Of a stretch of 64,000 nucleotides of DNA, positions 1 to 30,245 are shown piece by piece. Source of the DNA: Synechococcus sp. LTW-R (GTDB lineage: Bacteria > Cyanobacteriota > Cyanobacteriia > PCC-6307 > Cyanobiaceae); assembly GCF_014217875.1 (NCBI RefSeq), contig NZ_CP059060.1, positions 124,001 to 188,000 on the forward strand. The letters are read 5' to 3'. How positions within the stretch are numbered: the stretch's first letter is position 1; each line of letters opens with the position of its first letter. The notes under the pieces are model-generated. The model was not told where the DNA came from. It saw only the letters and a program-made list of their open reading frames with translations, and did not search any database. A program made the position numbers and the translations under genes.

Positions 1-39
1 GATGAATCTCTTCCGCCGCTCCTGCGCGGATCGCCTGCT

Positions 40-1719: not shown

Positions 1720-1732
1720 GGGGGTTGGGCAC

Positions 1733-1760
1733 AAAAAAGCCCAGGACAAGCCTGGGCTTT
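1733..1760 (-). terminator. Intrinsic terminator beyond tRNA-Ala remnant 1
   Basis: AAAGCCCAGG and CCTGGGCTTT pair around a 5-nt loop. On the minus strand the stem is followed by a T run, as expected for the terminator of a tRNA-Ala transcript. Each of the three tRNA 3' copies has its own, different hairpin terminator in this position. Confidence 0.75.
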
Positions 1761-1809
1761 CGGTAAGTGGAGCCAAGGAGACTCGAACTCCTGACCCCCT
1801 GCATGCCAT
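1756..1809 (-). repeat. Attachment-site copy 1 (3' part of tRNA-Ala)
   Basis: About 54 bases match the segment at 28444-28497, which contains the 3' end of the intact tRNA-Ala(GGC). The tRNA part starts at 1768 and covers the T arm, the variable loop and half of the anticodon arm. There is no 5' half of the gene here, so it is not a functional tRNA. This is the expected product of integration at a tRNA 3' end and marks the left edge of the accessory region. Confidence 0.88.
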
Positions 1810-11628: not shown

Positions 11629-12075
11629 CTACCCGGGCGTCTTCCTCCCGAATGGGGTCTCCAGTACCCGCTGCATGTGGCAGTTCAGATCCTTGAGGGT
11701 TGTTCCACGACGGTTGGCTCGTGAGGCAATGAATTCCTCCACCACCAGCGGCCACCCTTGATCTGCCACGGGCTTGGAGGACGTTGCCGGAGCTGCCTCT
11801 CTGGCGCTCCATAGCGCCTTCGCATCAGCCAGGGAGCAATGCCGGCTATCCACCAGCTCTTTGATGCTGCAGACCGCCGTGAGGATCGCTGCGGAGTCGG
11901 TGGCGGACCATCCCGTGCCCAGCATCACGTTCTGCCTGGGATTCGCCTGCTGCCTGCCCTCGTTGAAGCGCCTTGTGAGCTGGCAATCACCATTGCGCTC
12001 GGCAATGCCCCAGCCAGGTCCGCAGGAGTGCTTGATCTGCCGTCTCAAGCCCTGAAACCACTGTTCCCGACTCAT
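11629..12075 (-). pseudogene. Truncated tyrosine integrase, N-terminal part only (left element)
   Basis: The 148 residues from MSREQWFQGLRRQIKHS match the N-terminal half of the intact integrase at 12451-13683, block by block. GWSATDSAAILTAV matches TWTADNATAILNTV, VDSRHCSLADAKAL matches MDSRKVSLKEAARL, and TSSKPVADQGWPLVVEEF matches TSAKKVADKGWDAVAADF. It ends before the catalytic domain, so Arg, His and Tyr active residues are all missing. A terminator follows at once. It lies next to attachment copy 2, the normal site for an integrase. It could be a decayed gene or a retained DNA-binding regulator. Confidence 0.85.
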
Positions 12076-12156
12076 GTGCGCAGAAATTTCCCCATGCGCA
12101 GAATCATGCGCAGAAATGGGGTTCTTTGGGATGCCCCGGGTAGGACAACATGCGCA
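12074..12156 (+). promoter_or_regulatory. Arm-type-like sites, left element, att2 side
   Basis: ATGTGCGCAGA at 12074, CATGCGCAGA at 12093 and 12105 (12-bp period), and again at 12149. They overlap the start region of the truncated integrase and lie 50-130 bp from attachment copy 2. Binding by the left integrase and autoregulation are inferred. Confidence 0.5.
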
Positions 12157-12171
12157 GACGCTGCGTCCGAG

Positions 12172-12201
12172 ACACAAAAAAACCCAGTCAGTGACTGGGT
12201 T
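12172..12201 (-). terminator. Intrinsic terminator beyond tRNA-Ala remnant 2
   Basis: AACCCAGTCA pairs with TGACTGGGTT, and seven A's on the plus strand give a T run on the minus strand. The sequence differs from the terminators at copies 1 and 3, so each element end seems to have brought its own. Confidence 0.8.
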
Positions 12202-12206
12202 CTCTC

Positions 12207-12254
12207 AGTGGAGCCAAGGAGACTCGAACTCCTGACCCCCTGCATGCCATGCAG
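12207..12254 (-). repeat. Attachment-site copy 2 (3' part of tRNA-Ala)
   Basis: About 48 bases are identical to 28454-28501 in the intact tRNA gene, from just outside the 3' end to past the anticodon stem. Beyond 12254 the match stops. It separates the truncated integrase on the left from the intact integrase on the right and so marks the junction of two tandem elements. Confidence 0.88.
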
Positions 12255-12379
12255 TTAGTTGCTCGCTGAGTAACAACGGTCAAATCCCCGGGAATACTAG
12301 GGCAGAAGCTCGTTCAGCACTATAGCAAGGCCAAAGACGGCGCACAGGACTTGAGGGTTCTTGTTGCTTCTTGCATGGC

Positions 12380-12402
12380 TTTGGCGCACAATTTGGCGCA
12401 CA
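12380..12402 (+). promoter_or_regulatory. Paired arm-type-like sites, right element, integrase end
   Basis: TTTGGCGCACA at 12380 and 12392, 12 bp apart, about 125 bp from attachment copy 2 and 48 bp upstream of the integrase start. The same motif pair lies at 28348-28370 beside the intact tRNA. Confidence 0.6.
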
Positions 12403-12450
12403 GCCGCTGACCACCTGCATCCCTTGGCCAAAGTCATCTGGTCGGACAAC

Positions 12451-13683
12451 ATGCGGCAGGTGCTAAAGCGTGAGCACGGCAAAGGCTGGTCAGTCAGAGA
12501 TCACCGTGGCCGGGTGCAGCTGACGCGGATTTTTGAAGACCGCTCACGCAGTGCCGTTTACCTGCCACTGACTTGGACAGCCGATAACGCCACGGCGATC
12601 CTCAACACGGTTGCTGCAATCCACGACCTGATGGATTCGCGCAAGGTCAGCTTGAAAGAAGCTGCCCGGTTGAACACTCAGGCGTTGGCAGAGCCAGCCA
12701 CCAGCGCCAAGAAGGTGGCGGATAAAGGCTGGGATGCAGTTGCCGCCGACTTCCTTAAGAGCCGTGGTGACAGGCGCAGCAGCACTCTCAGGGACTTGAA
12801 GCTGCGGGTTGAACGTGCTGTTGCAGTCATCAACCAGAAGCCCAAGCCACGCGACGGCATGAGCGTGTTGGAGGCGTACGCAGCCGCCTACTTCAAAGAG
12901 ATGGCACCAGGTGGTCAGGGGCGCAAACGGAATCTCAACGACGTTGTGGCGTTCCTTCAGTTCGCTGTTGACCGCAGCGGTGCACCAGACCGTTTTTTGC
13001 CACCGCCTAAAGACCGCATCAATGAGTTGATCGGCACCAGCCCGACATCAACAACAGAACGGCTCACACCACCGATCAAGGCAGACCAGTTCACCGCTCT
13101 GCTGGATGCGCTGGAAGCTGATGGTCGCCATGACCTGAAACTGGCAGTAGCGCTGGTTGGGTATCTCGGGTTGCGGCCTGCAGAGCTGGCTGTGCTGCGT
13201 ATTGGCGATGACGGCAAGGCAAGGGTCGGCAGCATCAAGCGCAACATCCAAACGATGCAGCAGGCAGAGAAGCCGCCACGGTTGGTGATGCCCCTTGAGA
13301 TTGAAGGCAGAAACAACGAAGGCGCTCGAGCTGTCGCTCAGTTCGCCAGTGGCCTAGTGAAGCTGCCGAAAGCACTACGGAAGCAGATTGATTTGGTTGA
13401 GGACAAAGGACGTTTTCAGGACGTTGGTGCTGAATTTGCCCAGCAGCTCTCACGCTGTACACATTGGCAGGCGATGAGAAATATCGACCCGCGCATCACT
13501 GCTTACAGCCTGCGCCACGGATTTGCCTGGCGGGCAACAGTTGGCGAAAACAAGCTTCCGGTGCGAACTGCTGCAGCATTGATGGGGCACACGATGCAAG
13601 TGCACCACAGGCATTACGGCGCTTGGGTTGATGAAGCCGCCATTGAAGAAGCGGTGGGGATGCACAACGCTGCCGTCGCTTGA
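12451..13683 (+). CDS. int: Tyrosine recombinase/integrase (right element)
   Basis: A 410-aa site-specific recombinase. The N-terminal arm-binding and core-binding region covers roughly residues 1-190. The catalytic domain has the first Arg in LGLRPAELAVLR, the His-box in AYSLRHGFAWRA, the GH of ALMGHTMQVHH, and the nucleophile Tyr in RHYGAW near the end. All key residues appear present, so it may be active. I use the ATG at 12451; the in-frame region up to 12361 runs over the arm-type sites. It should act on the tRNA-Ala(GGC) 3' end, copies of which flank its element. Confidence 0.92.
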   Translation: MRQVLKREHGKGWSVRDHRGRVQLTRIFEDRSRSAVYLPLTWTADNATAILNTVAAIHDLMDSRKVSLKEAARLNTQALAEPATSAKKVADKGWDAVAADFLKSRGDRRSSTLRDLKLRVERAVAVINQKPKPRDGMSVLEAYAAAYFKEMAPGGQGRKRNLNDVVAFLQFAVDRSGAPDRFLPPPKDRINELIGTSPTSTTERLTPPIKADQFTALLDALEADGRHDLKLAVALVGYLGLRPAELAVLRIGDDGKARVGSIKRNIQTMQQAEKPPRLVMPLEIEGRNNEGARAVAQFASGLVKLPKALRKQIDLVEDKGRFQDVGAEFAQQLSRCTHWQAMRNIDPRITAYSLRHGFAWRATVGENKLPVRTAAALMGHTMQVHHRHYGAWVDEAAIEEAVGMHNAAVA

Positions 13684-14534: not shown

Positions 14535-15664
14535 CCCACAACCCAATGGGTCGCGGGCCACTCCCTGCCAAGGATGTGGTCAATTTAGGCGACCTTCTGC
14601 CACCGGAGCAGTGCGTCAAAGCACTGAAAACCCCTGTAGCACCTGAAGAAAAACTGCCTGGCTGGGCTCAATGTGCGCCAGAGAGTGCGCCAAACAGTCC
14701 TAGACGGCTCACCATCGATGAATCACAAGCCCGCAGGCATCTGTGGTTGCTGAACCTTGATCCACGCGTGACCAACATCCGCGCCATTGGTCACAAGGGG
14801 ATGAACCCCAGAAAGGCCATCAACGGCATCTTCTCGGATGACATTCATCGTGCTGAGCAATGGCATCGCCAAGGGTGTGGCCTTTATCTACAGGTCAACC
14901 GTGGCGGCACCAAGAAGGCACAGGTCACTGAGTGCATGGCACTGTTTCTGGAATACGACGACCGGCCTGTGCTGAAGCAAGTCGGCATCTGGGATGACCT
15001 TGGCCTTCCATATCCCACTTTTCAGGTGGACACAGGTGGGCGATCAATTCACCACTACTGGACCTTCAAAACCCCAATAGAGCCAGCACGTTGGGAGCAG
15101 CTGATGGCACGGCTGCACTTGCTTGCCGTTGGTTGCGACACCAGCTGCAAAGGTCTGCCCCGAATGATGCGGATGGCTGGTGCCTGGTACATCGATGGCA
15201 ACGGCACAGCGGTCTGCAGATCTGAGATTTGCGGTGATTGCTGTGATCGCTACCCAGCGGAGCTGTTTGAAGACCTGCTGCCTCCTTTGCACAACCCGTG
15301 CAAGGAATACAGCAGTGCACCAGCGGTAACAACTGCGCGTCCAGCTGTTGCCCGGGCACGTTCTGGCAACTGCACCTTGTCAGTGCGGCAGATCGCTGAA
15401 GCTCTAGATCACATCCCACGCCGTGTCGCTGGCCAAGGCACTTACGGCACCTACCTGCGGATCTTGTGGGGGCTGAAAGCAGCCATTACTGAAGCCGGTG
15501 GTGATGAAGACCTCGCCATCCGGTTGATGGAAGCTCACAGCCCTTCGGAAGTCTCCGGTTGGGACGTTGCACAGGTGGCTCGCAGTGGTGGCGAGCACAT
15601 CGGTCCAGGGACGTTCTTTCACCACGCCAAGCAATACGGGTGGAGTCGTCATGCAGAACGCTGA
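14531..15664 (+). CDS. AEP/RepB-like primase of an integrative element
   Basis: A 377-aa protein. Residues about 115-220 look like an archaeo-eukaryotic-type primase core: ALFLEYDD (acidic pair, 141-144) followed by the GGRSIHHYWTF strand with His (172-177), then GLPRMMRMAGAWY. A Cys pair (CGDCCD) and a helical C-terminal domain with GTYGTYLRILWGLKA follow. It would start replication of the excised element. The start at 14531 gives an ATGA overlap. The motif reading is by eye, so the family name is likely rather than certain. Confidence 0.72.
   Translation: MTHNPMGRGPLPAKDVVNLGDLLPPEQCVKALKTPVAPEEKLPGWAQCAPESAPNSPRRLTIDESQARRHLWLLNLDPRVTNIRAIGHKGMNPRKAINGIFSDDIHRAEQWHRQGCGLYLQVNRGGTKKAQVTECMALFLEYDDRPVLKQVGIWDDLGLPYPTFQVDTGGRSIHHYWTFKTPIEPARWEQLMARLHLLAVGCDTSCKGLPRMMRMAGAWYIDGNGTAVCRSEICGDCCDRYPAELFEDLLPPLHNPCKEYSSAPAVTTARPAVARARSGNCTLSVRQIAEALDHIPRRVAGQGTYGTYLRILWGLKAAITEAGGDEDLAIRLMEAHSPSEVSGWDVAQVARSGGEHIGPGTFFHHAKQYGWSRHAER
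14673..14692 (-). promoter_or_regulatory. Arm-motif pair inside the primase gene
   Basis: GTGCGCCA occurs at 14673 and 14685, again with a 12-bp period. It is the reverse complement of the right-element arm motif. Being inside a coding region it may be incidental or an extra binding site. Confidence 0.35.
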
Positions 15665-16955
15665 TCTGGAGAACATCGTTAGTTCTGCTGAAGCCGACAA
15701 CCCGGTACTGAAGACCAAAGACTTCATTGACCGGGCAACGAAGCTCAAGGAGAACCTCGACAAGGGGGTGGAACGCGTTGATGCCATCGATGACCCAACG
15801 TTGCGGTCTGTGGCTCTGATCCAGCTACAGGACGAATTGGGCCTCAATTGCAATGAGTTCCTGCGCCTGGTGGAACTGCTGTCCAAATTCAAAGGGGAGC
15901 AGCCACCAGACGACTTTGATGAACTGCGCAAGTGGACATCAAAGCGTCGAAAACCGCCTGTTGTGGAAGACCTGCTTGGCTCCAGCTGCCTAACCGTTTG
16001 GGCCGCTGACGGCGGTTCAGGCAAAAGCTGCGGTGCTTATGAAATCGCAGAAGCAATCACCACTGGTGGCAAGTTCGCTGGTCAATTTCAAGCGCAGGTC
16101 GGTGATGTGGTGTTCGTCCAAGAAGACGAATCACCCACAGATGCCGAGGTGAAGTGGCAACGCATGGGTTTTAATCCCTACGGCAAACGACTGCACCTGA
16201 TGTGGTCGTTCACTCCGCTGATGATTCCTGAGCTGAAAGCCAAGATCCAAGCCACCAACGCAAAGGCTGTGGTGATGGATTCGCTCATCAGCATTGCTGG
16301 CGGAACCATCTCGCCAAAAGACGCTGAGTTTGCGCTGCTGCTCTACCGGCTCAACAAATTGGCGTCAGAGATGGGGGTAGCGATCCTGCTGATTCACCAC
16401 CTCACCAAGGACAGCAACCGCCAAGAAGTCACCAAGGAAGCCATCTACGGCAGCGCGTTTATCTTCGCAGCCACAGCTGATTGCTGGGGCTACTGGCGGG
16501 CCGATGAAGAAGGAAAACCGCAGTTCAAATTGCGGGTGCTGAAGGCTCGTTCCAACACTGTGGAGCTGGGAACCATCTACGTCTTCAACGGCAACGAAGA
16601 AGACCACCGACTGACGTTCAAAGGCTTTGGTGATCGGGTGGTGAGCCTTGATGAGCTGAAGACCAAACGGGACATGGTGATGGCCTTGCTGCACCGTGAC
16701 GGCAGCCAGAAATGGTCTGGTGCTGACATCAGCGAGTTCTTCGGTTGGGGTGGCAGCCGTTACGCCGAAAACGTGTTGGCAAAGCTCTACGAACAGCGTT
16801 GCGGCGTTGATCGCGTGCCCATGCCCAGCACTGGTGGCAGGCGGAAATACGCCTACTTCAGCGTTCTGGGTGGAGAAGTGAAAAAGTCCGACTTCCCCAC
16901 AGCTTCTACACCCCCTAAAACCGGGTCAGAAGCCAGTGGTGAAAGGGACTGGTAA
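15651..16955 (+). CDS. RepA-like hexameric ATPase/helicase (AAA_25 type)
   Basis: A 434-aa RecA-fold ATPase. Walker A is AADGGSGKS at 118-126; a Walker B-like strand is KAVVMDSLIS; then come the LLIHHLTKD and IYGSAFIFAATADCWGYW motifs found in RepA/DnaB-type helicases of plasmids and satellites. The C-terminus carries a winged-helix segment (RDMVMALLHRDGSQKWSG). The ATG at 15651 overlaps the primase by 14 nt, so primase and helicase form one module. Confidence 0.8.
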   Translation: MQNADLENIVSSAEADNPVLKTKDFIDRATKLKENLDKGVERVDAIDDPTLRSVALIQLQDELGLNCNEFLRLVELLSKFKGEQPPDDFDELRKWTSKRRKPPVVEDLLGSSCLTVWAADGGSGKSCGAYEIAEAITTGGKFAGQFQAQVGDVVFVQEDESPTDAEVKWQRMGFNPYGKRLHLMWSFTPLMIPELKAKIQATNAKAVVMDSLISIAGGTISPKDAEFALLLYRLNKLASEMGVAILLIHHLTKDSNRQEVTKEAIYGSAFIFAATADCWGYWRADEEGKPQFKLRVLKARSNTVELGTIYVFNGNEEDHRLTFKGFGDRVVSLDELKTKRDMVMALLHRDGSQKWSGADISEFFGWGGSRYAENVLAKLYEQRCGVDRVPMPSTGGRRKYAYFSVLGGEVKKSDFPTASTPPKTGSEASGERDW

Positions 16956-19994: not shown

Positions 19995-20888
19995 CTAACT
20001 TTTAAAGCTAAGCCTCTGATAGCAGAGCGAGAGCCACTGCTGAAAGAAGAGGTTTCGGTGCGATCTCCAAAGAGTAACAGGCTCCTGATCATTGAAGTTG
20101 AAAGGTGGTGGTACATCGCCCCGACCACGGTCCCTCTCCATTTCAGCAAGAAGCCTATCTACATTATATTCAGGATGGCCAAGATGCATGAGCTGCTTTT
20201 GATCAGGAGTTTCAAAAATGGTGTAGCCAACATCCTGACCATGAGCTAGCAGCCTCAACCTACCTTGAATCTCGGCTTTTTCCATCTCTTGATCATCTAG
20301 CGTTGCGTGTCGGCTTTGTGGGCAGACAAAAGTATCGTCTTGACCGTTGATAATGGGATTTCCTGGAGCGAGTGACTTAAGAGGGAACACCCCAAACAAT
20401 TTTTGGGACAATGGTCGCTTATCAACTCCTGCTAGATAAGCCAATGCAAAACCAGCCCAGCAAAGACCAAGGGTGCTAGCACAGTGAGTACGAGATTCAT
20501 TAATGACCTTTACTAGCTCTTCCCAGTAATTAACCTCTTCAAACTGCAAATGCTCTACTGGCGCGCCAGTAATAATTAGAGCATCTAAAAAGTCATTCGA
20601 ATTCGCCTCTTCCCAAGAAACATATATACGGTCTAAATGGTCCCGATCCCAAGTCTTGTAGTCATGACTTGAAAGTCGAATCCATACAGGCTCGATCTGG
20701 AGAGGGGATAGCCCAAGTGGATGCAGCAGGTTGAATTCATACTGCATCCCCAAGGGCATAATATTTACTATCCCAACTCGAAGTGGCCTAATATCTTGCC
20801 TCTCAGCTAGAGATGGATCAATCCAAAGAACACCAGCCCTTTGAAGAGAATCAATCTTATTGTACTTTCTTGGAAGTATGAGCGACAA
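19995..20888 (-). CDS. metA: Homoserine O-acyltransferase, MetA family
   Basis: A 297-aa enzyme that acylates homoserine, the first committed step of methionine synthesis. Seen: NIMPLG near the N-terminus, TGAPVEHLQFEEVNYWEEL, the catalytic Cys143 in GLCWAG, and the GHPEYN motif. The length is normal. Whether acetyl- or succinyl-CoA is used cannot be read safely. It lies 8 nt downstream of metY and both are visibly richer in A+T than the core genes, which suggests import from a low-GC picocyanobacterium. Confidence 0.9.
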   Translation of the reverse strand: MSLILPRKYNKIDSLQRAGVLWIDPSLAERQDIRPLRVGIVNIMPLGMQYEFNLLHPLGLSPLQIEPVWIRLSSHDYKTWDRDHLDRIYVSWEEANSNDFLDALIITGAPVEHLQFEEVNYWEELVKVINESRTHCASTLGLCWAGFALAYLAGVDKRPLSQKLFGVFPLKSLAPGNPIINGQDDTFVCPQSRHATLDDQEMEKAEIQGRLRLLAHGQDVGYTIFETPDQKQLMHLGHPEYNVDRLLAEMERDRGRGDVPPPFNFNDQEPVTLWRSHRNLFFQQWLSLCYQRLSFKS

Positions 20889-20896
20889 CTTGCCAC

Positions 20897-22336
<1,440 letters not shown>

Positions 22337-22348
22337 TTGGTTTCCAGT

Positions 22349-22753
22349 TCAAGCGGCAGAGCCTTGAAGTACAAGGATCCAAGTTAATGCCGTTAGCAAA
22401 GCAACTGAAACCGGAAGCAACAGTAGTAACAGATGGCCAGAGCGATTCTCCGGTTGATCTGAGATATCGGGATCTTCAGATTCGGAGAGAGACATTAGAA
22501 CGTGCTCCAACATGGATAGATGAGTTCGATAGTCAGCAATAGAACATGTCGAACGAATCTTATCCTTCACATTTTCGCAAAATAAAGATCTCAGATTCAT
22601 TAATGTCGTGATATCAAGATTATGTTTACGATGAACCATCAATAAGCTTCGCTTTCGTGAGGCTAAATTATGCAAGCCACTGAGGTCGTACCAGTTTTGC
22701 TGCCAACTTAATTCTGAGATTTTCCGAAAAACTTGCTGATGCACTTTTATCAC
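22349..22753 (-). CDS. Hypothetical tail-anchored membrane protein (134 aa)
   Basis: A soluble, helical N-terminal part (MIKVHQQVFRKISELSWQQN) is followed by a C-terminal membrane helix (GHLLLLLLPVSVALLTALTW, residues about 105-127). It is AT-rich like metA-metY. No family is recognised. Confidence 0.65.
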   Translation of the reverse strand: MIKVHQQVFRKISELSWQQNWYDLSGLHNLASRKRSLLMVHRKHNLDITTLMNLRSLFCENVKDKIRSTCSIADYRTHLSMLEHVLMSLSESEDPDISDQPENRSGHLLLLLLPVSVALLTALTWILVLQGSAA

Positions 22754-22797
22754 TCAAGGTTTTTCTCCACTCACAGTTTGATTTTTGAAGACGCCGC

Positions 22798-22953
22798 TTA
22801 GTCTTCTGTCAATCTTTTGTCTACCTTTGCCTGCAAAGCTGAAAGCTGCTTTTCGATGTACCTTGCAAGTTTCTGATCGCCAGCGCGCTTTGCTTGATGC
22901 AAATGAAAAATCAGGCTGTCGTAGGCGTCCTTGGCTGAAGACTTCTTGGCCAT
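22798..22953 (-). CDS. 51-aa micro-protein B, copy 1
   Basis: It begins MAKKSSAKDAYDSLIFHLHQ and contains AKRAGDQKLARYIEKQL. The gene at 25787-25942 encodes a clear paralogue of the same length with the shared core FHLHQAxRAGDQKLA. Conservation of the protein in two separate copies shows the frame is real. It follows the 22-aa peptide gene after exactly 31 nt. The fold is probably helical; function is unknown. Confidence 0.8.
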   Translation of the reverse strand: MAKKSSAKDAYDSLIFHLHQAKRAGDQKLARYIEKQLSALQAKVDKRLTED

Positions 22954-22984
22954 GAGTAGCAATGCACAAAAATTCCGCTGTTAC

Positions 22985-23053
22985 TTAGACGTCTCGGAGC
23001 AAGGAGCTTGCGATCCAGGCTGCAAATAAGAACGCGCCAATGAAACCGGCCAT
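22985..23053 (-). CDS. 22-aa membrane micro-protein A, copy 1
   Basis: MAGFIGAFLFAAWIASSLLRDV is one short membrane helix with an Arg-Asp end. The copy at 25687-25755 has the same length and differs at six positions, all conservative or small-to-small changes. The gene is preceded by an HLR1-like repeat and followed after 31 nt by micro-protein B. Photosynthetic complexes contain subunits of this size, but no such identity is claimed. Confidence 0.72.
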   Translation of the reverse strand: MAGFIGAFLFAAWIASSLLRDV

Positions 23054-23074
23054 AGCAATCGGAGATCCGACTCA

Positions 23075-23092
23075 AATGTAACGGTGTGTAAC
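23075..23092 (-). promoter_or_regulatory. HLR1-like element (RpaB site), copy 1
   Basis: Read on the minus strand: GTTACACA-CC-GTTACATT. This matches the HLR1 consensus, two (G/T)TTACA(T/A)(T/A) repeats separated by 2 bp, at 15 of 16 fixed positions. It ends 21 nt before the start codon of micro-protein A. HLR1 is bound by the response regulator RpaB and controls high-light genes in cyanobacteria. Confidence 0.65.
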
Positions 23093-23548
23093 GACAAGCG
23101 TGGCTTCTCGCTTGGGCGGAGGCCAATCAACAGAAATTTGCTTTGCCGCACCGCCTCACTTACAGGACTCCAGTTGACCCACACCAGGTGTCTGTTTGCT
23201 GGCATCAGCTGGCGGCACCACTACAGCTGGTGCCAGCGTTAGCCAGTACTGGGCGACCCTCAATGAACCCAGCCGTGCTCACCCGCTTGGACCAGCTGGA
23301 GCAGGAATGGCAGCAGCGTCTACTGATGCAACCAAGAAGCGGTCCAACGGACAAAAAAAGAGACGGGTACCAACCCGCCTCGGTTTCTCCCTTGAAACCC
23401 ACTCGTAGGTCTCAAAGAGATAGTGCGACCAGGCGTTAAGTGGTGACGTGTCTTTGGTCACCCCTTGATCGTTGTGTGTGGGACTGAGGACTCTTCCTGA
23501 GGTTCCCAAGGCAGCCAGCCGAAAGCGACTCACCAGCAACAAGCCAAG
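23093..23548. other. Gap with no supported gene
   Basis: Two overlapping plus frames (23143-23439 and 23196-23408) compete and neither is persuasive. A weak stem CGGGT-ACCA-ACCCG lies at about 23364-23377. Confidence 0.4.
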
Positions 23549-23584
23549 AAAAAACCTCCATGGGATGACTGACCACGGAGGTTT
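23549..23584 (-). terminator. Minus-strand intrinsic terminator
   Basis: AACCTCCATGG and CCACGGAGGTT form an extended stem with six T's following on the minus strand. About 120 nt further right, AAGGGCGGC-ACTCAC-GCCGCCCTT (23702-23725) is a perfect 9-bp hairpin without a T run. No coding frame between 23585 and 23833 is convincing. Confidence 0.62.
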
Positions 23585-23833
23585 GCGGTCTCCTCAGACG
23601 ACGCCCAACAGATCTATTCGGGGTCTTGTATCCACACGAGTAGGACAACCGTCACTGGGGGTTCGGTCAAGAACACTCACCCCAGGAAACCGCCCATTGA
23701 GAAGGGCGGCACTCACGCCGCCCTTGGCACCTGACCCGTCGAAAGAGAAGCAGGGTCTGCTGGTGTCTGAACCCTTGATAGGTCGCCCAACAGGCAGGCG
23801 ACACCAGCAAAAACACTCAACCTCGAAGCACAT

Positions 23834-23859
23834 AAAAAAGGCGGTGCGCTAACACCGCC
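23834..23859 (-). terminator. Terminator of the Cys-rich gene pair
   Basis: GGCGGTG-CGCTAA-CACCGCC preceded on the plus strand by six A's. It lies about 90 nt beyond the stop of the downstream Cys-rich gene. Confidence 0.72.
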
Positions 23860-23946
23860 TCTCCTCCCCAAGACGAAACTCACCACGGAACATCTGATCC
23901 AGTTGTGGTTCAAGGGGATACAGAAGGCATCAGTACAAGCACTCGT

Positions 23947-24126
23947 TCAAGAGGGACTGGATCCCTGCTCCCAGTTCCAGCACTTCACTGATGACACCTT
24001 CGGTCTAGGGATAGAACCCTCATGAAGGTGGCAGTAGGTGCTGTCGTAGTGACGGCAGTAGAGGCGGCAGTTCAGACCTGTTCCCGAAGTCCGGAGCAGT
24101 CCATAAGGAAGAACGTCGTTGGTCAT
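23947..24126 (-). CDS. Cys-rich small protein 2 (59 aa)
   Basis: It starts MTNDVLPYGLLRTSGTG, then LNCRLYCRHYDSTYCHLH, and ends with VKCWNWEQGSS. Its start shares one base with the stop of the upstream Cys-rich gene (TGATG), so the two are coupled. The C-x3-C-x7-C-..-K-C-x2-W pattern resembles that of its neighbour, hinting at a common zinc-binding fold. Confidence 0.62.
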   Translation of the reverse strand: MTNDVLPYGLLRTSGTGLNCRLYCRHYDSTYCHLHEGSIPRPKVSSVKCWNWEQGSSPS

Positions 24127-24356
24127 CACGCTGCCTCTGGGCACCACCCAACCTGCTTTTCCCGTCTGGTCATCCAGTGACGGCACTTCTTGGTCAGGTG
24201 CTCTCCCTGTTGCAGTTGCTTGGACTGCAGTCGGCACCCCAGCAGTGTTCGGCAGTGGGCGTCTGTCCCATATGTGAAGTGCTGGCAGGTAATGCAGACC
24301 CGGCCTGACCTGGAGGCGCGTAATGCCCTCGATTCCATGAACTCCCAGTCCTCCAT
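24126..24356 (-). CDS. Cys-rich small protein 1 (76 aa)
   Basis: After a helical N-terminus come CITCQHFTYGTDAHCRTLLG, then C, KKCRHWMTRR and WCPEAA: six Cys and two His in a pattern suited to a small zinc ribbon. I use the ATG at 24356. No known family is assigned. Confidence 0.65.
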   Translation of the reverse strand: MEDWEFMESRALRASRSGRVCITCQHFTYGTDAHCRTLLGCRLQSKQLQQGEHLTKKCRHWMTRREKQVGWCPEAA

Positions 24357-24530
24357 GCACGCTCCGCCTAAGTACACCTGCACTACTAAAAACGGCGTTC
24401 GTTCCGTAAGGCTTTTCAGGAAGGCTTCAGGTCTCGGGGAATCCGGAAGAAATTCCTGAAGCCGGAGTACGTAGGCCCATGGACGCGGCTAGCCCCTAGG
24501 GGTGCCTTTGTCTGGACGACGCAGAGTTTG

Positions 24531-24770
24531 ATGGTCAACGTGTCCTCAGACTCCTTGCAGGTGCTCCTGGTGGCAGCTCAGCGTTGGTTACTAGCTCTCG
24601 CCGGCATAGGCCTTGTGGCGCTGGTTGCACTGATGACCAGGCTTCTTCCTGCGGTGAATCAGACCCAGCGCCTGCTCGACTGCGTTGAGCGCTAGAAGCA
24701 GGCTTACGTCGAAAGTGCGATCCCGGAGATCGCTGAGATCGATGCGTATGACCCTTGCAAGGGGTTGTAG
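24531..24770 (+). pseudogene. Small membrane protein gene with internal stop
   Basis: The frame begins MVNVSSDSLQVLLVAAQRWL, has a membrane helix (residues about 12-42) and reaches NQTQRLLDCVER. A TAG follows at 24693-24695, then the same frame continues KQAYVESAIPEIAEIDAYDP and CKGL to a second stop. The continuation reads as genuine protein, so I take this as one 79-codon gene with a nonsense mutation. A 54-aa truncated product is still possible. Confidence 0.6.
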
Positions 24771-25029
24771 GCAGGCCTGATGCCAGGCACGCTCTGACCA
24801 TTCAAGTCACATCAACCAACAGGAATTCGGTTAACTGGCCAACAAGAGACCAACCCAAACCAATCGACGACAATTACTTGAGCTATCAGTCAAGCCGATT
24901 GCTATTACTGGAGTTGGAGAACTACGCTGAATAGTCTTGCCGTTTAAGCTGATCCGAGACTCTTTGCTCTATTCCGAAGAGCACCGAGGTGAGATGAGGC
25001 ACAAGGCTTTGGGAACTGATGGACTGCTA

Positions 25030-25230
25030 TCAGTTCCCTGAGCGAATCCAGTCTTTTAAAAGCTGCGTGACATTGACTTCTTTCAGTTCCTCATCAGCAA
25101 TCGCAGCAACTCTCCGAACGTCTCGCTGAGTCTTCACCACCTTTGCAATAGCGTGTTCTGCATCCATCGCCCGAACCGGTTGGATGCTGCAGCGATTCGA
25201 GTCGCAATAGAACACCGAATACGCCGTCAT
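25030..25230 (-). CDS. Hypothetical small protein (66 aa)
   Basis: It starts MTAYSVFYCDSNRCSIQPV, then AMDAEHAIAKVVKTQRDVR and a helical tail ending LKDWIRSGN. The beta-strand opening followed by an A-x-x-A helix looks like a small alpha/beta domain. No family is recognised. Confidence 0.6.
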   Translation of the reverse strand: MTAYSVFYCDSNRCSIQPVRAMDAEHAIAKVVKTQRDVRRVAAIADEELKEVNVTQLLKDWIRSGN

Positions 25231-25350
25231 GCCAATCCAAGGAAATGGTGTGGGCCGCGATGTGAGGAGTGCGACCCTGCGCTGCCGATAGGACCACGGG
25301 GAGGTAAGGACCTCGTCCGTCTGGTTGGGTCAGCACCGTTCGGTCATGGC

Positions 25351-25641
25351 TCAAGTCGCTCCTTGGGTGCAATAGCCAAGCAGCAAAGGTGGTACTGCAG
25401 GCTTTCGAAACCGTGGGACACAGCAGCTTTCCTCCCCCGCTGGGACTGCGTTGGTCTGTGGTGCCTTCAGCTCTGGAATGGACTCAAACGCTGAAGGAGC
25501 GAATGTGAATCGTCTGTCGCGTTCTGCCAAGCCCTGAGAGGGGGGCGCACTTTTCATGCGGTGGCCGGACGCGTCGGTCAAATCCGCTGCTTCGCACAAG
25601 ATTTGGACAGGCAAGCTCTGCCCCAGGAACCGAACTCGCAT
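25351..25641 (-). CDS. Possible hypothetical protein (96 aa)
   Basis: The frame from the ATG at 25641 (MRVRFLGQSLPVQILCEAAD) runs away from the HLR1-like element. The N-terminal third is protein-like and the rest is Pro/Ser-rich. GGAGG lies directly against the ATG, too close for a normal ribosome site. Confidence 0.32.
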   Translation of the reverse strand: MRVRFLGQSLPVQILCEAADLTDASGHRMKSAPPSQGLAERDRRFTFAPSAFESIPELKAPQTNAVPAGEESCCVPRFRKPAVPPLLLGYCTQGAT

Positions 25642-25646
25642 CCTCC

Positions 25647-25664
25647 GTAACACTCCGTTACATT
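25647..25664 (+). promoter_or_regulatory. HLR1-like element (RpaB site), copy 2
   Basis: GTAACACT-CC-GTTACATT: the second half is a perfect HLR1 repeat and the first has two mismatches. It ends 22 nt before the ATG of micro-protein A copy 2, almost the same distance as in copy 1, while the DNA around it has diverged. Confidence 0.58.
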
Positions 25665-25686
25665 TGTCCGGCAGCTGCTTTTTCTG

Positions 25687-25755
25687 ATGGCTGGTTTCGT
25701 AGGCGTCCTTCTCTTTGCCGCATGGGTTGTGGGATCCCTGTTCCGCGATGTCTGA
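25687..25755 (+). CDS. 22-aa membrane micro-protein A, copy 2
   Basis: MAGFVGVLLFAAWVVGSLFRDV, the paralogue of the peptide encoded at 22985-23053. One membrane helix fills nearly the whole chain; the ends (MAGF and RDV) are identical. It is followed after 31 nt by micro-protein B copy 2. Confidence 0.72.
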   Translation: MAGFVGVLLFAAWVVGSLFRDV

Positions 25756-25786
25756 CCACAACCAACGCTTCTAGAGGCTCTTTCGC

Positions 25787-25942
25787 ATGGCTAAACCAAC
25801 TTCCTCAAAGCAGATTTACGAGGCCCTCTGCTTCCACCTCCATCAAGCTCAACGCGCAGGTGATCAGAAGCTTGCGGGTTGCATCACAAAGAGAATTGAG
25901 GCTCTCCATCTAGATGCTGAGGCTGGCCTAAGCGTCAGGTAG
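25787..25942 (+). CDS. 51-aa micro-protein B, copy 2
   Basis: It begins MAKPTSSKQIYEALCFHLHQ and contains AQRAGDQKLAGCITKRIEAL. It aligns without gaps to the protein at 22798-22953. It has two Cys that copy 1 lacks. Confidence 0.8.
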   Translation: MAKPTSSKQIYEALCFHLHQAQRAGDQKLAGCITKRIEALHLDAEAGLSVR

Positions 25943-26089
25943 GTCCAGCCTGACAAAGACCGGATTGGCCTTGGAAACGCACCGCTTAGTCAGCGTCATC
26001 TGCTCTTCATCTCCTTGATGAGACATGACCCCATATGGGGGTTTTGGGCTAAGGAGGTTCTGGTGATGATGACCTCGAAACGTCAGTCC

Positions 26090-26122
26090 ATCCCCTCGGA
26101 CGCCTGCCCGGGGGGATTTTTT
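26090..26122 (+). terminator. Terminator downstream of micro-protein cassette copy 2
   Basis: ATCCCC(T)CGG pairs with CCCGGGGGGAT, followed by six T's. Between 25943 and 26090 there is a second small stem (CCCCATATGGGG) and an AAGGAGG not followed by a credible frame; the interval may be a 3' UTR or a small RNA. Confidence 0.7.
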
Positions 26123-26168
26123 ATGGACTTCACTCGTTCGGCAGCCCTCTTCTTGGTGCCAAGGGGAT

Positions 26169-26246
26169 TGGGTCGGGGGGTCGGATAAGTCCCCCCTGCT
26201 CGGACAACGGCGGAATGTTCTCGGCCGTCTCCTCGCTGGTTATGGC
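26169..26246 (-). repeat. Palindromic island repeat, partial copy 10 (inverted)
   Basis: GGGTCGGGGGGTC, CTCGGACAACGG and GTCTCCTCGCTGGTTATGGC keep the order of the inverted copies at 19096 and 19503. It lies downstream of psbA. Confidence 0.55.
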
Positions 26247-26280
26247 TCCGGTGGCCTCGCAACTGCAAGCCCAAACAACA

Positions 26281-26308
26281 AAAAGCCCCCGCTTTCGCGG
26301 GGGCTTTT
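26281..26308 (-). terminator. psbA terminator
   Basis: AAAAGCCCCCGC-TTTC-GCGGGGGCTTTT, a perfect 12-bp stem about 50 nt past the psbA stop. It can work on both strands. Confidence 0.88.
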
Positions 26309-26359
26309 GATTCAACACTCCTCGAAGTTCGAGAAGAAGCTGAATCTTGGGGTTCAGCC

Positions 26360-27439
26360 TCAGCCGATGGCGGGAGCAGTCAGAGCCACGGGGGTGGACT
26401 CAGCAGCAGCCAGGTCGAGGGGGAAGTTGTGAGCGTTGCGCTCGTGCATCACTTCCATACCGAGGTTGGCGCGGTTCAGCACGTCAGCCCAGGTGTTCAG
26501 CACACGACCCTGGGAATCCAGGATCGACTGGTTGAAGTTGAAGCCGTTCAGGTTGAACGCCATGGTGCTAACGCCCAGGGCGGTGAACCAGATACCAACC
26601 ACAGGCCAGGCAGCCAGGAAGAAGTGCAGGCTGCGGCTGTTGTTGAAGGAGGCGTATTGGAAGATCAGGCGACCGAAGTAACCGTGGGCAGCCACGATGT
26701 TGTAGGTCTCTTCCTCTTGGCCGAACTTGTAGCCGTAGTTCTGGGACTCGCTCTCGGTGGTTTCACGCACCAGGGAGGAGGTCACCAGGGAGCCGTGCAT
26801 GGCGGAGAACAGGGAACCACCGAACACACCAGCCACACCAAGCATGTGGAAGGGGTGCATCAGGATGTTGTGCTCAGCCTGGAACACCAGCATGTAGTTG
26901 AAGGTGCCGGAGATGCCCAGGGGCATGGCGTCCGAGAAGGAGCCCTGACCGAAGGGATACACCAGGAACACTGCGGAAGCAGCAGCCACGGGTGCGCTGT
27001 AAGCAACGCAGATCCAGGGGCGCATGCCGAGGCGGTAGGAGAGTTCCCACTCACGACCCATGTAGGCGTAGATGCCGATGAGGAAGTGGAAAACAACCAG
27101 CTGGAAAGGACCGCCGTTGTACAGCCACTCGTCGAGGCTGGCGGCTTCCCAGATGGGATAGAAGTGCAGGCCGATGGCGTTGCTGGAGGGGATAACAGCA
27201 CCAGAGATGATGTTGTTTCCGTAGATCAGGGAGCCAGCAACAGGCTCACGGATGCCGTCGATGTCGACGGGGGGTGCTGCGATGAACGCAACGATGAAGC
27301 AGATGGTGGCGGCCAGCAGGCAGGGAATCATCAGAACGCCGAACCAACCCACATAGAGGCGGTTGTCGGTGCTGGTGACCCACTCGCAGAACTGGTTCCA
27401 CGCAGAAGCGCCTTGGCGCTGCTGGATGGTGGTCGTCAT
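26360..27439 (-). CDS. psbA: Photosystem II D1 protein, high-light (Glu130) form
   Basis: A 359-aa D1 protein, the reaction-centre subunit of photosystem II that binds P680, the primary acceptor pheophytin, QB and most ligands of the Mn cluster. Five membrane helices are evident. Residue 130 is Glu (YMGRE), the mark of the high-light D1:2 isoform. The C-terminus [18 protein letters not shown] carries the extension cleaved after Ala344. It lies inside the right element, between attachment copies 2 and 3, so excision of the element would remove it. No RNA or protein anomaly is seen. Confidence 0.98.
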
Positions 27440-27674
27440 GAGTACGGGAAAGAAAGGCTCAACGGACTAGCCGTCAGAGCGGGGATGCAAAACGGCCCTG
27501 TTGGGCTGTTGCACCTGAAGTTATGGGCACTGACCAAGAACTGGGAACCCTTTTGGCGATCGCCTCTGGCGATCACAGCGATAACCAGAGCTGATCAGCC
27601 CCGTCATGACTGAGCTCTTGCGATCATCTGAGGCTGAATCGCCCCCAAATGGGGACACGGCCGTCAGCGGCTGG
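27440..27674 (-). promoter_or_regulatory. psbA upstream region
   Basis: This is the leader and promoter region of psbA on the minus strand. It contains the HIP1-like palindrome GGCGATCGCC (27555-27564). I could not place a clear -35/-10 pair or an HLR1 repeat by eye. No gene is present between 27440 and 27809. Confidence 0.4.
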
Positions 27675-27783
27675 ATTGCCCCCATTTGGGGGCTATGGGC
27701 ACGGCTAGGTGCAGAAGGAGAGTGATCGAAGTCCCCAGGGAGGGGGCACCGAAGAGCAGACGGCCCCCGTTGACGGACGGGGG
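27675..27783 (+). ncRNA. Putative small RNA, copy 2 (terminator decayed)
   Basis: Nearly identical to 11411-11517, with the same three hairpins and only a few single-base changes and one insertion. After the last stem the T run of copy 1 is replaced by TCCCAC, so termination may be lost here. Confidence 0.42.
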
Positions 27784-27800
27784 TCCCACATGCCGTGGAG

Positions 27801-27837
27801 CCCCCCCCACTACTGAGCAGTGGGTCGGGGAGCAGTA
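27801..27837 (+). repeat. Palindromic island repeat, short copy 11
   Basis: CCCCCCCACTACTGAGCAGT, then GGGTCGGGGAG, then CAGTAG. It lies at the truncated 3' end of the rmuC fragment and supplies the last codons and stop of that frame. Confidence 0.75.
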
Positions 27838-28280
27838 GGTGTTCGTCCGAGCTGGACAGCCTCCTTCATTTCGGTGCGGGCTTGGTTCTGCTGAGAGTTC
27901 AGCTTCTCGGCTGCTTCCGCCGCTTGGGTGCTGAGGATCTCTTTCTGAGCCCGGGTCTCTTCCAGAGTTGCCTTGGTTGTGGCTTCGGACGGCTTGAGTT
28001 CATCGCGCTCCTTGGTGACGGCATTGAGCTGGGTGCGGCTAACCGCTGCCGTCTCACGCGCCTCCTGGAGCTGCTCCTGCTGGCTCCTGAGTTCTTCCTT
28101 CTGAGCCTCTAGTTGCTTGCTGAACTGCTCCAGACCTGCGTCCGCCTTGCTCAGGCGCTCCTCCAGCAGGCGTTCAGTGCTGCCGTTCGGGGCTGAGGAG
28201 GCTCTGCTGCGCCTTGAGATGATGTACCCGGCGATGAAGCCAGCCAGGACCCCAGTGACGAACAGAAGGACTTCTGCCAT
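27810..28280 (-). pseudogene. rmuC: Truncated RmuC (N-terminal membrane helix and coiled coil)
   Basis: The 156-aa frame starts MAEVLLFVTGVLAGFIAGYI, a membrane anchor, and continues as a long coiled coil (SKQLEAQKEELRSQQEQLQE; RETAAVSRTQLNAVTKERDE). This is the N-terminal layout of RmuC, a DNA recombination protein of about 400-500 aa. The nuclease-like domain is absent, and the frame ends inside palindromic repeat copy 11. The break coincides with the repeat, which suggests rearrangement there. Confidence 0.6.
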
Positions 28281-28347
28281 TGCTCTGTAGGTGCAGCAGG
28301 ACCTTCCTAGCCCTTAAAGCTGCCTCCAGCTCCTCCTCTTGCACTCA

Positions 28348-28370
28348 TTTGGCGCACTCTTTGGCGCACA
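28348..28370 (+). promoter_or_regulatory. Paired arm-type-like sites, right element, tRNA end
   Basis: TTTGGCGCAC at 28348 and 28360 (12-bp period), 86 bp from the 3' end of the intact tRNA-Ala. This is the same motif and orientation as the pair at 12380-12402 at the other end of the element. Confidence 0.6.
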
Positions 28371-28421
28371 AACAATGTGAAACAGCCTTCTGCGGCGCTT
28401 CTTCCTCTTTGGCAAGGCACT

Positions 28422-28447
28422 AAAAAACCCGGTCGTGGACCGGGCTT
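28422..28447 (-). terminator. tRNA-Ala terminator
   Basis: AACCCGGTC-GTG-GACCGGGCTT with a T run on the minus strand, 9 nt past the tRNA 3' end. Confidence 0.85.
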
Positions 28448-28501
28448 TCGGTAAGTGGAGCCAAGGAGACTCGAACTCCTGACCCCCTGCATGCCATGCA
28501 G
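28444..28501 (-). repeat. Attachment-site copy 3 (within intact tRNA-Ala)
   Basis: The tRNA-proximal copy: it shares 54 bases with copy 1 (down to the GCTTTCGGTAAG flank outside the gene) and 48 with copy 2 (up to the GCAG of the anticodon stem). It is the right boundary of the accessory region. Confidence 0.88.
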
Positions 28502-28528
28502 GTGCTCTACCAGCTGAGCTATGGCCCC
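28456..28528 (-). tRNA. tRNA-Ala (anticodon GGC)
   Basis: A 73-nt cloverleaf. The acceptor strand GGGGCCA pairs with TGGCTCC (one G-U) with discriminator A. The D arm is AGCTCAGCTGGTAGAGC; the anticodon stem CCTGC/GCAGG encloses the loop ATGGCAT, anticodon GGC. The T arm contains the GTTCGAGTC motif. CCA is not encoded. The 3' half is duplicated at 12207 and 1756. Confidence 0.95.
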
Positions 28529-28618
28529 TTTCGGTATCGATGAACTCGCCTGGCGCTGGTCGTCAGGGATGGCCCGAAGGCCGCGTCGTCGATGGAGAGA
28601 GCTTACACCGCAGAGGGT

Positions 28619-29245
28619 TTAAACCTGACGCCAGACTGCCACGAGCTTCCCTTGGATGGCCACTTGGTCGGCATCCACGAGGATCGGTTCGTAGGCGGGA
28701 TTGGCGGCCTCAAGACGCACCTGCCGGCCGTCGCGGTGGAAGTGCTTGAGGGTGGTGCCGCTGCCGGGCACCAGGGCGCTGACGATCGTGCCCTCCCGCA
28801 GTCGGCTTGGCTCCTTGACGGGCTCCATCAAAACGACGTCACCGTCGGCGATGTGGGCGTCCACCATCGAGTCGCCGTTGACCGTCAGGGCGAAGAGGCC
28901 GCGGGTGGCCAGCACCGGCTCGAGCTCCAGCCGCTCCTCGACGTCGTCAAAGGTTTCGACCAGGCCACCGGCAGCCACGGCACCCAGGACCGGAATGCCG
29001 CCACCCAGGGCGTCGCCGAGTAGTTGCAGGGTTCGGGCCTGACCTTCCTTCCAGGTGATCCAGCCCTTCTGTTGGAGGTGGCGCAGGCGGCTCTGAATCG
29101 GCGCCGGAGAGCGAAGCCCCATCGCCTCCATCATTTGGCGGATCGAGGGGCTGTGGCGGTGTTCGCCGATGTACTCGGAGAGCCAGTCGTAGAGCTCTTG
29201 CTGGGCGGTGGTCAGGGGCTCAGGCGATCCAGCGGGCACCGGCAA
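28619..29245 (-). CDS. lexA: LexA repressor
   Basis: A 208-aa SOS repressor. The N-terminal winged helix (PSIRQMMEAMGLRS) is followed by a self-cleavage site Ala92-Gly93 (AVAAGGL), the catalytic Ser126 (NGDSMVD) and Lys167 (TLKHFHRDG). All the residues needed for RecA-stimulated autocleavage are present. The frame starts at TTG (29245); a GTG two codons later is an alternative. An SOS-box-like motif lies 15-28 bp upstream, so autoregulation is likely. Confidence 0.93.
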   Translation of the reverse strand: MPVPAGSPEPLTTAQQELYDWLSEYIGEHRHSPSIRQMMEAMGLRSPAPIQSRLRHLQQKGWITWKEGQARTLQLLGDALGGGIPVLGAVAAGGLVETFDDVEERLELEPVLATRGLFALTVNGDSMVDAHIADGDVVLMEPVKEPSRLREGTIVSALVPGSGTTLKHFHRDGRQVRLEAANPAYEPILVDADQVAIQGKLVAVWRQV

Positions 29246-29259
29246 TGCATTTGTTCGTC

Positions 29260-29273
29260 AATACATTTGTACC
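29260..29273 (-). promoter_or_regulatory. SOS box upstream of lexA
   Basis: GGTACAAATGTATT on the minus strand matches the cyanobacterial LexA box RGTACNNNDGTWCB with one mismatch (C to T near the end). It lies in the 55-nt gap between argF and lexA. Confidence 0.72.
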
Positions 29274-29300
29274 GCCGGGGCTCTGCTTTGGCAACCGGCT

Positions 29301-30245
29301 TCAGGAGAGCAGGGCCGCCAGCAGGGCCTGCTGGGCGTGCAGACGGTTTTCGGCTTGATCGAAGATCCGGCTGCTGCTTCCTTCCATGGCGCCAGCGCTT
29401 ATCTCCAGGCCGCGGTAGGCGGGCAGGCAGTGGAGAACGATCGCTTTGGGATCGGCCTCGGCCACCAGCTCCTCATTGAGACACCAGCCGCTGAAGGCTT
29501 GCTCCCGCTCGCTCTTCTCCTCTTCTTGGCCCATCGAGGCCCAGACATCGGTGTAGAGGGCATGGGCGCCGCGGACGGCGGCGACCGGTTCTTGAATGAC
29601 CTCGATGCTGCAGCGATCGCCCGCCAGAGCCCGGGATTGCTGCAGAACGCCAGCGTCGGGTTCGTAGCCCTTGGGGCAGCCCACGCGGATGTTCACCCCG
29701 AGCAGGGCACCGCAGAGCATCAGTGAGTGGGCGACGTTGTTGCCGTCTCCGACATAGGAGAGGGTGAGCCCTTCGATGGAGCCGAAGGCTTCCTGCAGGG
29801 TTAGGAAATCGGCGAGGGCCTGGCAGGGGTGCTCGAGGTCGGTCAAGGCATTGATGACCGGAATCGAGGCCCAGTGGGCGTACTCCGCCAGCTCCTCTTG
29901 GGCAAAGGTGCGGATCGAGAGGGCGTTGACGTAGCGGCTCAGCACCCGGGCGGTGTCCGCCACGGGCTCTCCACGGCCCACTTGGCTGACCTGGGGATTG
30001 AGGTCGATGGTCTGGCCGCCCAGGCGGGCCATGGCCACGCTGAAACTCACCCGGGTGCGGGTGGAGGCCTTGCTGAAGATCAGGCCCAGTACTTTCCCGC
30101 TGAGGTCCACGCGGGTGCGGCCGGCCTTCAGGTCCGCCGCCAGCTCCAGCAGGGCTTGGGTTTGCTCCGCCGTGACATCAGCCGACGAGAGGAAGTCGCG
30201 TCCGCTGAGGCCGGCGAGGGAGGGATAGCCGCTGAGGGCAGCCAT
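29301..30245 (-). CDS. argF: Ornithine carbamoyltransferase
   Basis: A 314-aa enzyme joining carbamoyl phosphate and ornithine to citrulline in arginine synthesis. STRTR at 61-65 binds carbamoyl phosphate, HPCQ is at 139-142, and HCLPAYRG near residue 272 is the ornithine loop. The length is typical. It lies between ftsH and lexA on the same strand. Confidence 0.96.
   Translation of the reverse strand: MAALSGYPSLAGLSGRDFLSSADVTAEQTQALLELAADLKAGRTRVDLSGKVLGLIFSKASTRTRVSFSVAMARLGGQTIDLNPQVSQVGRGEPVADTARVLSRYVNALSIRTFAQEELAEYAHWASIPVINALTDLEHPCQALADFLTLQEAFGSIEGLTLSYVGDGNNVAHSLMLCGALLGVNIRVGCPKGYEPDAGVLQQSRALAGDRCSIEVIQEPVAAVRGAHALYTDVWASMGQEEEKSEREQAFSGWCLNEELVAEADPKAIVLHCLPAYRGLEISAGAMEGSSSRIFDQAENRLHAQQALLAALLS

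Follow-up and report, generated by a model that had tools for sequence, protein, structure and literature searches.

Two inverted copies of a two-gene unit lie within the 64,000-nucleotide stretch of the Synechococcus sp. LTW-R genome analyzed here (contig NZ_CP059060.1, positions 124,001 to 188,000; hereafter, the window). In each unit, a double repeat resembling the HLR1 element is followed by a 21- or 22-nucleotide (nt) gap, an open reading frame (ORF) for a hydrophobic 22-amino acid (aa) peptide, a 31-nt spacer, and a 51-aa ORF. The comparative analysis reported here suggests that these units are probably an RpaB-controlled high-light module that is related to the hli operons and that, on mobile DNA, has been coupled to a new partner gene. 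Judged by sequence comparison, the 22-aa peptide is a divergent member of an unannotated family of one-helix peptides of about 25 aa that are embedded in hli operons, and we rate this micropeptide family as the part of widest interest. The two units consist of the following features:

23075..23092, minus strand: HLR1-like element of unit A, GTTACACACCGTTACATT; 1 mismatch to KTTACAWWNNKTTACAWW in 16 specified positions
22985..23053, minus strand: 22-aa one-helix peptide of unit A, MAGFIGAFLFAAWIASSLLRDV; relative of the hli-operon micropeptides
22798..22953, minus strand: 51-aa protein of unit A, a predicted two-helix hairpin; no homologue found outside its own genome
25647..25664, plus strand: HLR1-like element of unit B, GTAACACTCCGTTACATT; 2 mismatches
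25687..25755, plus strand: 22-aa one-helix peptide of unit B, MAGFVGVLLFAAWVVGSLFRDV
25787..25942, plus strand: 51-aa protein of unit B, paralogue of the unit A protein

Conservation of the paired genes

The two units had been described in an earlier reading of this DNA made from the letters alone (the sequence-only reading). All four ORFs, with the 31-nt spacer in each pair, were confirmed, as were the HLR1-like repeats, which end 21 nt (unit A) and 22 nt (unit B) before the ATG and match the consensus at 15/16 and 14/16 positions, respectively, the genomic count of sites with 2 mismatches being at chance level.

The claim that the coding pair is conserved beyond random divergence also held up. 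The coding parts of units A and B differ at 91 nt, 46 of which are third codon positions (binomial p 0.0005). In simulations that redistributed the observed base changes at random over the frame (20,000 runs per gene), not one run for the 51-aa gene retained as many residues as observed without an internal stop, and only 124 did so for the 22-aa gene. In the 51-aa gene, 27 of the 52 codons, stop included, keep their meaning, compared with 14.5 expected from the simulation, and the two 51-aa proteins are 51% identical. By these measures, both frames look like genes under constraint. The spacers are identical at 10 of 31 positions while the frames and the promoter are kept, so the duplication seems to date back far enough for neutral sequence to have become scrambled.

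The AlphaFold2 model of the 51-aa protein, built with the two paralogues as input, consists of helices at residues 7-24 and 27-50 (mean pLDDT 85), so that the protein is predicted to form a two-helix hairpin. It is hydrophilic, with a net charge of +2 in unit B and +4 in unit A. A fold search of the PDB with this model returned no matches at E<=0.001, the best hits, from 0.86 upwards, being generic helical hairpins. None of the four unit proteins matched a Pfam family, apart from a hit to DUF6435 at E 0.06, and none was recognized as an HLIP. DUF6435 (PF20027) weakly matches residues 8-41 of the unit B 51-aa protein, but at 13.8 bits against a cut-off of 26.9, and the unit A protein does not match it, so that we do not count either protein as a member. 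HLIP proteins are characterized by a chlorophyll-binding ExxNGRxAMxG helix (Pfam PF00504).

Homologues of the 51-aa protein at E<=0.01 were found in one of 400 genomes of the family, namely, its own. Among 25 genomes of the genus, its own was the only one with a match better than E 0.09, or better than 0.004 by profile. No homologues were found in phages, in viral contigs, or in the hli-peptide loci fetched, and none of 146 pattern matches in GTDB contigs was confirmed; the collections searched may omit the LTW-R genome and its nearest kin. Loose matches, own genome included, occur in 11 of the 25 genus genomes at E<=1 and in 23 at E<=10; in the other genomes, the best of them mostly hit one 34-residue stretch within ORFs about 920-980 aa long, with E values of 0.005 and higher, and we regard these as chance matches. 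Given the lack of a convincing homologue, the pairing appears, on present data, to be peculiar to this genome or its closest kin. The sequence-only reading had proposed beforehand a search for the same pairing in picocyanobacterial and phage genomes, and had held that a failure to find further homologues would speak against it; the pairing was not found elsewhere.

The hli-operon micropeptides and their upstream element

The peptide, by contrast, is not peculiar to the cassette. A degenerate pattern derived from units A and B and from the peptide of an hli operon in the same genome matches exactly these three genomic places, with no control match. Ungapped BLOSUM62 scores of the unit peptides against five hli-operon peptides are 39-50, compared with shuffle means of 15-18, and the score is reached in 0 or 1 of 2,000 shuffles. 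A profile of nine peptides matched 71 of the 400 family genomes at E<=0.1 and 43 at E<=1e-3, seven of the 43 having supplied profile sequences; units A and B, which the profile contains, score E 6.4e-11 and 5.5e-12. In a class-wide sample of 388 genomes, the peptide was matched at E<=1e-3 in 7, every one of which belongs to this same family.

The best peptide place in each of 30 genomes, which were selected by the peptide, lies, in all 30, within 125 nt of an hli match. Among 22 further peptide places listed, counting two repeats and both units, 19 adjoin an hli match, the exceptions being units A and B and one locus in genome G105. Conversely, 21 of 80 named hli loci, from which the profile was partly built, hold the peptide; these loci were chosen by hli, and some, such as L118 and L120, are cut off upstream. 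The titles of peptide-bearing loci include Cyanobium strains, Synechococcus WH 5701, and Microcystis elabens FACHB-917, and the WH7803 and RCC307 loci gave no match. Two of the 30 pattern loci opened (L038 and L040) also show the peptide in hli context; among 8 pattern matches in 6 genus genomes, those in G209 and G258 are long ORFs, MoaC by eye, and were discarded. A search of viral contigs with the nine-peptide alignment found no peptide. Pfam yielded no match for the hli-operon micro-ORFs tried, and NCBIfam none that exceeded its cut-off; no description of the peptide or of the cassette was found among the matches listed from the open-licence PMC literature.

The usual order in these operons is HLR1, a 47-aa Hli, a 38-aa membrane ORF, the 25-aa peptide, and a 78-aa Hli; in LTW-R and its relatives G009, G092, and G269, the leading Hli is missing, and the operon begins with the 38-aa ORF. 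A second conserved micro-ORF, also for a membrane peptide and 38-42 aa long, lies ahead of the 25-aa peptide in, among others, G000:C1:252530-252762 (L020/L201), L040, L117, and L171, with a consensus of roughly M.TDYTAAI..V..LVVLLTGM..FVLSRPSDLAP; three of its sequences were tried, and had no Pfam match.

The HLR1 consensus given in PMC13421787, KTTACAWW-N2-KTTACAWW, has 16 specified positions, and it is by comparison with this pattern that both unit sites are read as candidate HLR1 elements. At 1 mismatch, the LTW-R genome contains two sites, those of unit A and of an hli operon, compared with none in the controls. The unit B site is one of four genomic sites with 2 mismatches and, by count alone, is at chance level. 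The window contains 3 sites with up to 3 mismatches, against 1.19 expected, and 12 of 100 shuffles reach 3. The 25 genus genomes have 12 sites with 0 or 1 mismatch versus 1 in the control. Taken alone, the motif would thus be weak evidence, and its weight comes from position and conservation rather than from single matches.

The second 1-mismatch site in LTW-R (G000:C1:252745-252762) heads an operon in which a 38-aa membrane ORF and the 25-aa peptide MALTALLLFAGWIAASLLKPTPQQS are followed by two hli genes, with PF00504 matches at E 3.1e-4, which narrowly misses the cut-off, and at 1.5e-5. In G009, G092, and G269, the counterparts of this operon have sites with 0-1 mismatch 23-24 nt before the first start codon, as does an hli operon of G218. 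Among 38 distinct peptide-bearing hli operons, 21 have a site with no more than 2 mismatches within the 600 nt that precede the peptide; on the opposite strand, the number is 0, and with the pattern read backwards, it is 2. For 37 of these operons, the upstream DNA was long enough to locate the best site in the preceding 75 nt, and in 33, this site stops 23 or 24 nt short of the first ORF; different distances occur in L198 and L199 (33 nt), L223 (1 nt), and L186 (19 nt, with 8 mismatches and a probably misassigned start). A search of 75 of the 80 named hli loci, some with and some without the peptide, covered 180 nt around the point where the first hli match starts; 32 have a site with at most 2 mismatches, versus 2 on the other strand. 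The last six bases of the best site fit TAnnnT in 35 of the 37 operons, and in many of them, the first repeat is the more variable of the two. Both mismatches of the unit B site, too, fall in the first repeat. Both unit sites end in the -10-like TACATT (23080-23075 in unit A, 25659-25664 in unit B), and we infer that the second repeat may serve as the -10 box.

The six genus sites with 0 or 1 mismatch that belong neither to hli operons nor to unit A lie in other settings. Such a site precedes a helicase-like ORF (by eye) in L109, and in L110, there is no clear gene behind it. In L114 and L115 (G189 and G218), it lies 9 nt before the GTG start of a conserved 100-aa ORF (VMFLSFFGFLFAALSFVQVPQWDN...), and in L112 and L113 (G165 and G092), TTTACAAAATTTTACAGA precedes a small ORF with a conserved C-terminal part (..NWLKIA...WF.ARAKAIAEGRPDPLAEL..).

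A proposed high-light module and its alternatives

On these grounds, the functional light-regulated pair that the sequence-only reading had proposed stands in part: a conserved coding pair does lie behind an HLR1-type element, with near-equal spacing at hli operons family-wide, but the peptide belongs to a family found in those operons. We propose that each unit would be transcribed into a two-cistron mRNA under the control of RpaB. In low light, RpaB would sit on the HLR1 repeats, the second of which would overlap the -10 box, and block RNA polymerase. In high light, RpaB would leave, and a leader of about 15 nt would start translation of the 22-aa membrane peptide, followed by the 51-aa hairpin. 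Two papers on RpaB are consistent with such a scheme: hli/scp genes are RpaB-HLR1 targets in other cyanobacteria, HLR1 lies 3-13 bp from the transcription start site in Synechocystis scp genes, and sites overlapping -38 to +23 mediate repression that is relieved by high light (PMC6331805, PMC13421787). This regulation is the firmest part of the account, and we consider it likely. The peptide is most likely bound for the thylakoid membrane, where it would join HLIP or photosystem II assembly or repair complexes, a reasoned guess that could well fall either way, and the soluble 51-aa protein would be co-expressed as its partner. The module of promoter and peptide would have come from an hli operon, been joined to a new gene on a psbA-bearing tRNA-Ala island, and been duplicated there.

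The closest known systems are the hli/scp (HLIP) operons under RpaB-HLR1 control, with which the units share an HLR1-like element near the start codon and a peptide of the same family as that found among hli genes, and from which they differ by the lack of an hli match, by the new 51-aa second gene, and by their location on an island. SliP4 (HliR1) of Synechocystis 6803 is a 37-aa one-helix peptide, RpaB-controlled, high-light-induced, and encoded before sodB, according to PMC5126843 and PMC12850537. It resembles the unit peptide in being a one-helix peptide encoded upstream of another gene and, if our proposal is right, in its RpaB and high-light control. The unit peptide differs in being 22 aa long, picocyanobacterial, and related to hli-operon peptides, and PMC5126843 reports no homologue of SliP4 beyond Synechocystis; the two are likened by layout, and we do not identify the unit peptide as SliP4.

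Several points weigh against this account. Across the whole LTW-R genome, there are 6 HLR1-like sites with up to 2 mismatches and 5 for the pattern read backwards. Only 5 of the 12 genus sites with at most 1 mismatch head hli operons, the remaining 7 being that of unit A and six elsewhere, and the hli-operon counts are not independent because the operons are related. There is no hli match on either strand of the 64-kb window, so the units lack the adjacent hli gene that marks the peptide family in 30 of 30 loci, and a function shared with the hli-operon peptides is not guaranteed. The case for constraint on the 51-aa gene comes from one pair of paralogues because the protein has no relative outside its own genome; the rate of synonymous substitutions (dS) was not computable for a Ka/Ks test, so that simulation was used in its place, and the simulation takes no account of substitution clustering. 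Our account presumes descent of the module from an hli operon over descent in the opposite direction or common ancestry.

The 22-aa ORF might be mainly a leader, that is, a light-regulated upstream ORF that serves expression of the 51-aa protein while the peptide itself does little. The first cistron lies directly behind the promoter, the 31-nt spacer is equal in both units, hliR1 transcripts read through into sodB in Synechocystis (PMC5126843), and a similar peptide precedes an unrelated gene in G105. We nevertheless find this unlikely, since the peptide is conserved as a protein between the units (124 of 20,000 simulations) and across the hli operons, where it follows other ORFs instead of coming first. 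A similar balance applies to the possibility that the repeats are bound by another regulator, or that a mere -10 box happens to have a chance repeat upstream. The six sites against five controls at 2 mismatches and the concentration of the unit B mismatches in the first repeat, which also varies more in many hli operons, would fit it, but nearly the same element and spacing head 33 of 37 hli operons, and the hli/scp genes are RpaB-HLR1 targets in other cyanobacteria (PMC6331805, PMC13421787), which makes this alternative quite improbable.

The units could, in principle, be decaying remnants of an hli operon and of island genes, conserved just through recent duplication. The 2.5 kb without a convincing gene between them and the confinement of the 51-aa partner to one genome are what such decay would leave; the spacer, however, is down to 10/31 identity, yet both frames and the promoter are kept, so that we consider decay very improbable. 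Still less do we favor a toxin-antitoxin-like island pair with the hydrophobic 22-aa peptide as a membrane toxin and the soluble 51-aa protein as its antitoxin. A one-helix peptide next to a small soluble protein, duplicated within a tRNA-Ala island, is suggestive of such a pair, but the relatives of the peptide reside in hli operons, without a 51-aa-like protein in the loci fetched, the promoter shares the HLR1/-10 layout of those operons, and no family match other than DUF6435 at E 0.06 was found, although PADLOC was not searched.

The preferred reading of the units as a module related to hli operons can be taken one step further, on the strength of the locus in G105 (L245:876-1684). There, an HLR1 site with 1 mismatch is followed, after 25 nt, by a 30-aa peptide and, after another 55 nt, by DoxX (Pfam E 2.8e-20), with no hli match on the strand of the peptide within the 2,992 bases fetched. 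This locus is best read as an independent case of HLR1 and the peptide before an unrelated gene, and it hints at portability. HLR1 and an hli-type micropeptide might thus constitute a portable light-stress module placed before unrelated genes, the 51-aa hairpin here and DoxX in G105, with the peptide positioning the co-made protein at sites of HLIP or photosystem II repair and the 51-aa protein acting as a new island-borne effector of D1 turnover, encoded beside psbA. We put this forward as a speculation that is doubtful at present; if true, picocyanobacteria and their mobile islands use the module so that new proteins are made in high light along with a membrane peptide.

HLIP operons play a central role in photoprotection, and many picocyanobacterial genomes encode a peptide of about 25 aa within them; provided that this peptide is made, the high-light response has a small component that has so far been missed. 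The window offers a relative of this peptide that stands apart from hli genes, has a promoter of its own, and lies near psbA on a mobile island. The two units are clean constructs for studying the action of the peptide without hli genes and may exemplify the use of a host stress promoter by mobile DNA.

The tRNA-Ala island

The units are part of an island inserted at a tRNA-Ala gene, a setting that the sequence-only reading had not noticed. Its main features are as follows:

1728..1809, no strand: third tRNA-Ala 3'-end-like copy, left island limit; adjoining sequence directly abuts tRNA-Ala in G009
12209..12254, no strand: att-like repeat separating two tandem island elements; 46 bp identical to the tRNA-Ala 3' end
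12361..13683, plus strand: tyrosine-recombinase-like integrase of the inner element; Phage_integrase E 3.9e-5, 23.9 bits, under the Pfam cut-off of 27.1
15567..16955, plus strand: AAA ATPase (AAA_25, E 5.9e-19) near the integrase, putatively a replication helicase
26360..27439, minus strand: psbA (D1), Pfam Photo_RC 5.8e-90, island neighbour of unit B
28455..28528, minus strand: tRNA-Ala(GGC), insertion target of the island

In G009, the site is empty: sequence matching window positions 1-1809 runs straight into tRNA-Ala and lexA (window 28416-29293). In LTW-R, these parts lie about 26.6 kb apart, and the tRNA 3' end occurs three times; the positions of its copies (1728-1809, 12209-12254, and 28455-28528) point to two tandem elements. 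The inner element holds the integrase-like gene, the AAA ATPase, metA, a metY-like gene, both units, and psbA. An Rfam search of window 20000-29500 yielded tRNA-Ala alone above the gathering score. We presume that the closest kind of island is the tRNA-associated genomic islands of picocyanobacteria (tycheposons and similar), with which this one shares tRNA 3'-end repeats, an integrase-like gene, an AAA ATPase, and cargo genes. The cargo here, namely, psbA, metA/metY, and the micro-cassettes, is different, and the likeness is one of layout, with no named family assigned.

The same tRNA-Ala site in G092 (L101:14726-19056) carries psbA (93%), the orange carotenoid protein, a desaturase-family protein, and FRP. 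Comparison of roughly 20 kb in G236 and G009 showed no psbA match adjacent to tRNA-Ala in the former and, in the latter, only one at 68%, about 6 kb away from it. Light-protection genes thus occupy this site in LTW-R and G092, and psbA is absent from it in G009 and G236.

The 2.5 kb between the units (window 23100-25640), in which we saw no convincing gene, had no match in the tRNA-Ala regions of the eight relatives compared. The metA (HTS) and metY-like genes (window 19995-22225, minus strand) have a GC content of about 43-47%, compared with about 55% in the flanks, and the metY-like gene has a match in 3 of the 25 genus genomes, its own included and one of them weak. Just outside the inner element, window 11629-12177 (minus strand) looks, by eye against 12361-13683, like the remnant of an integrase N-terminus.

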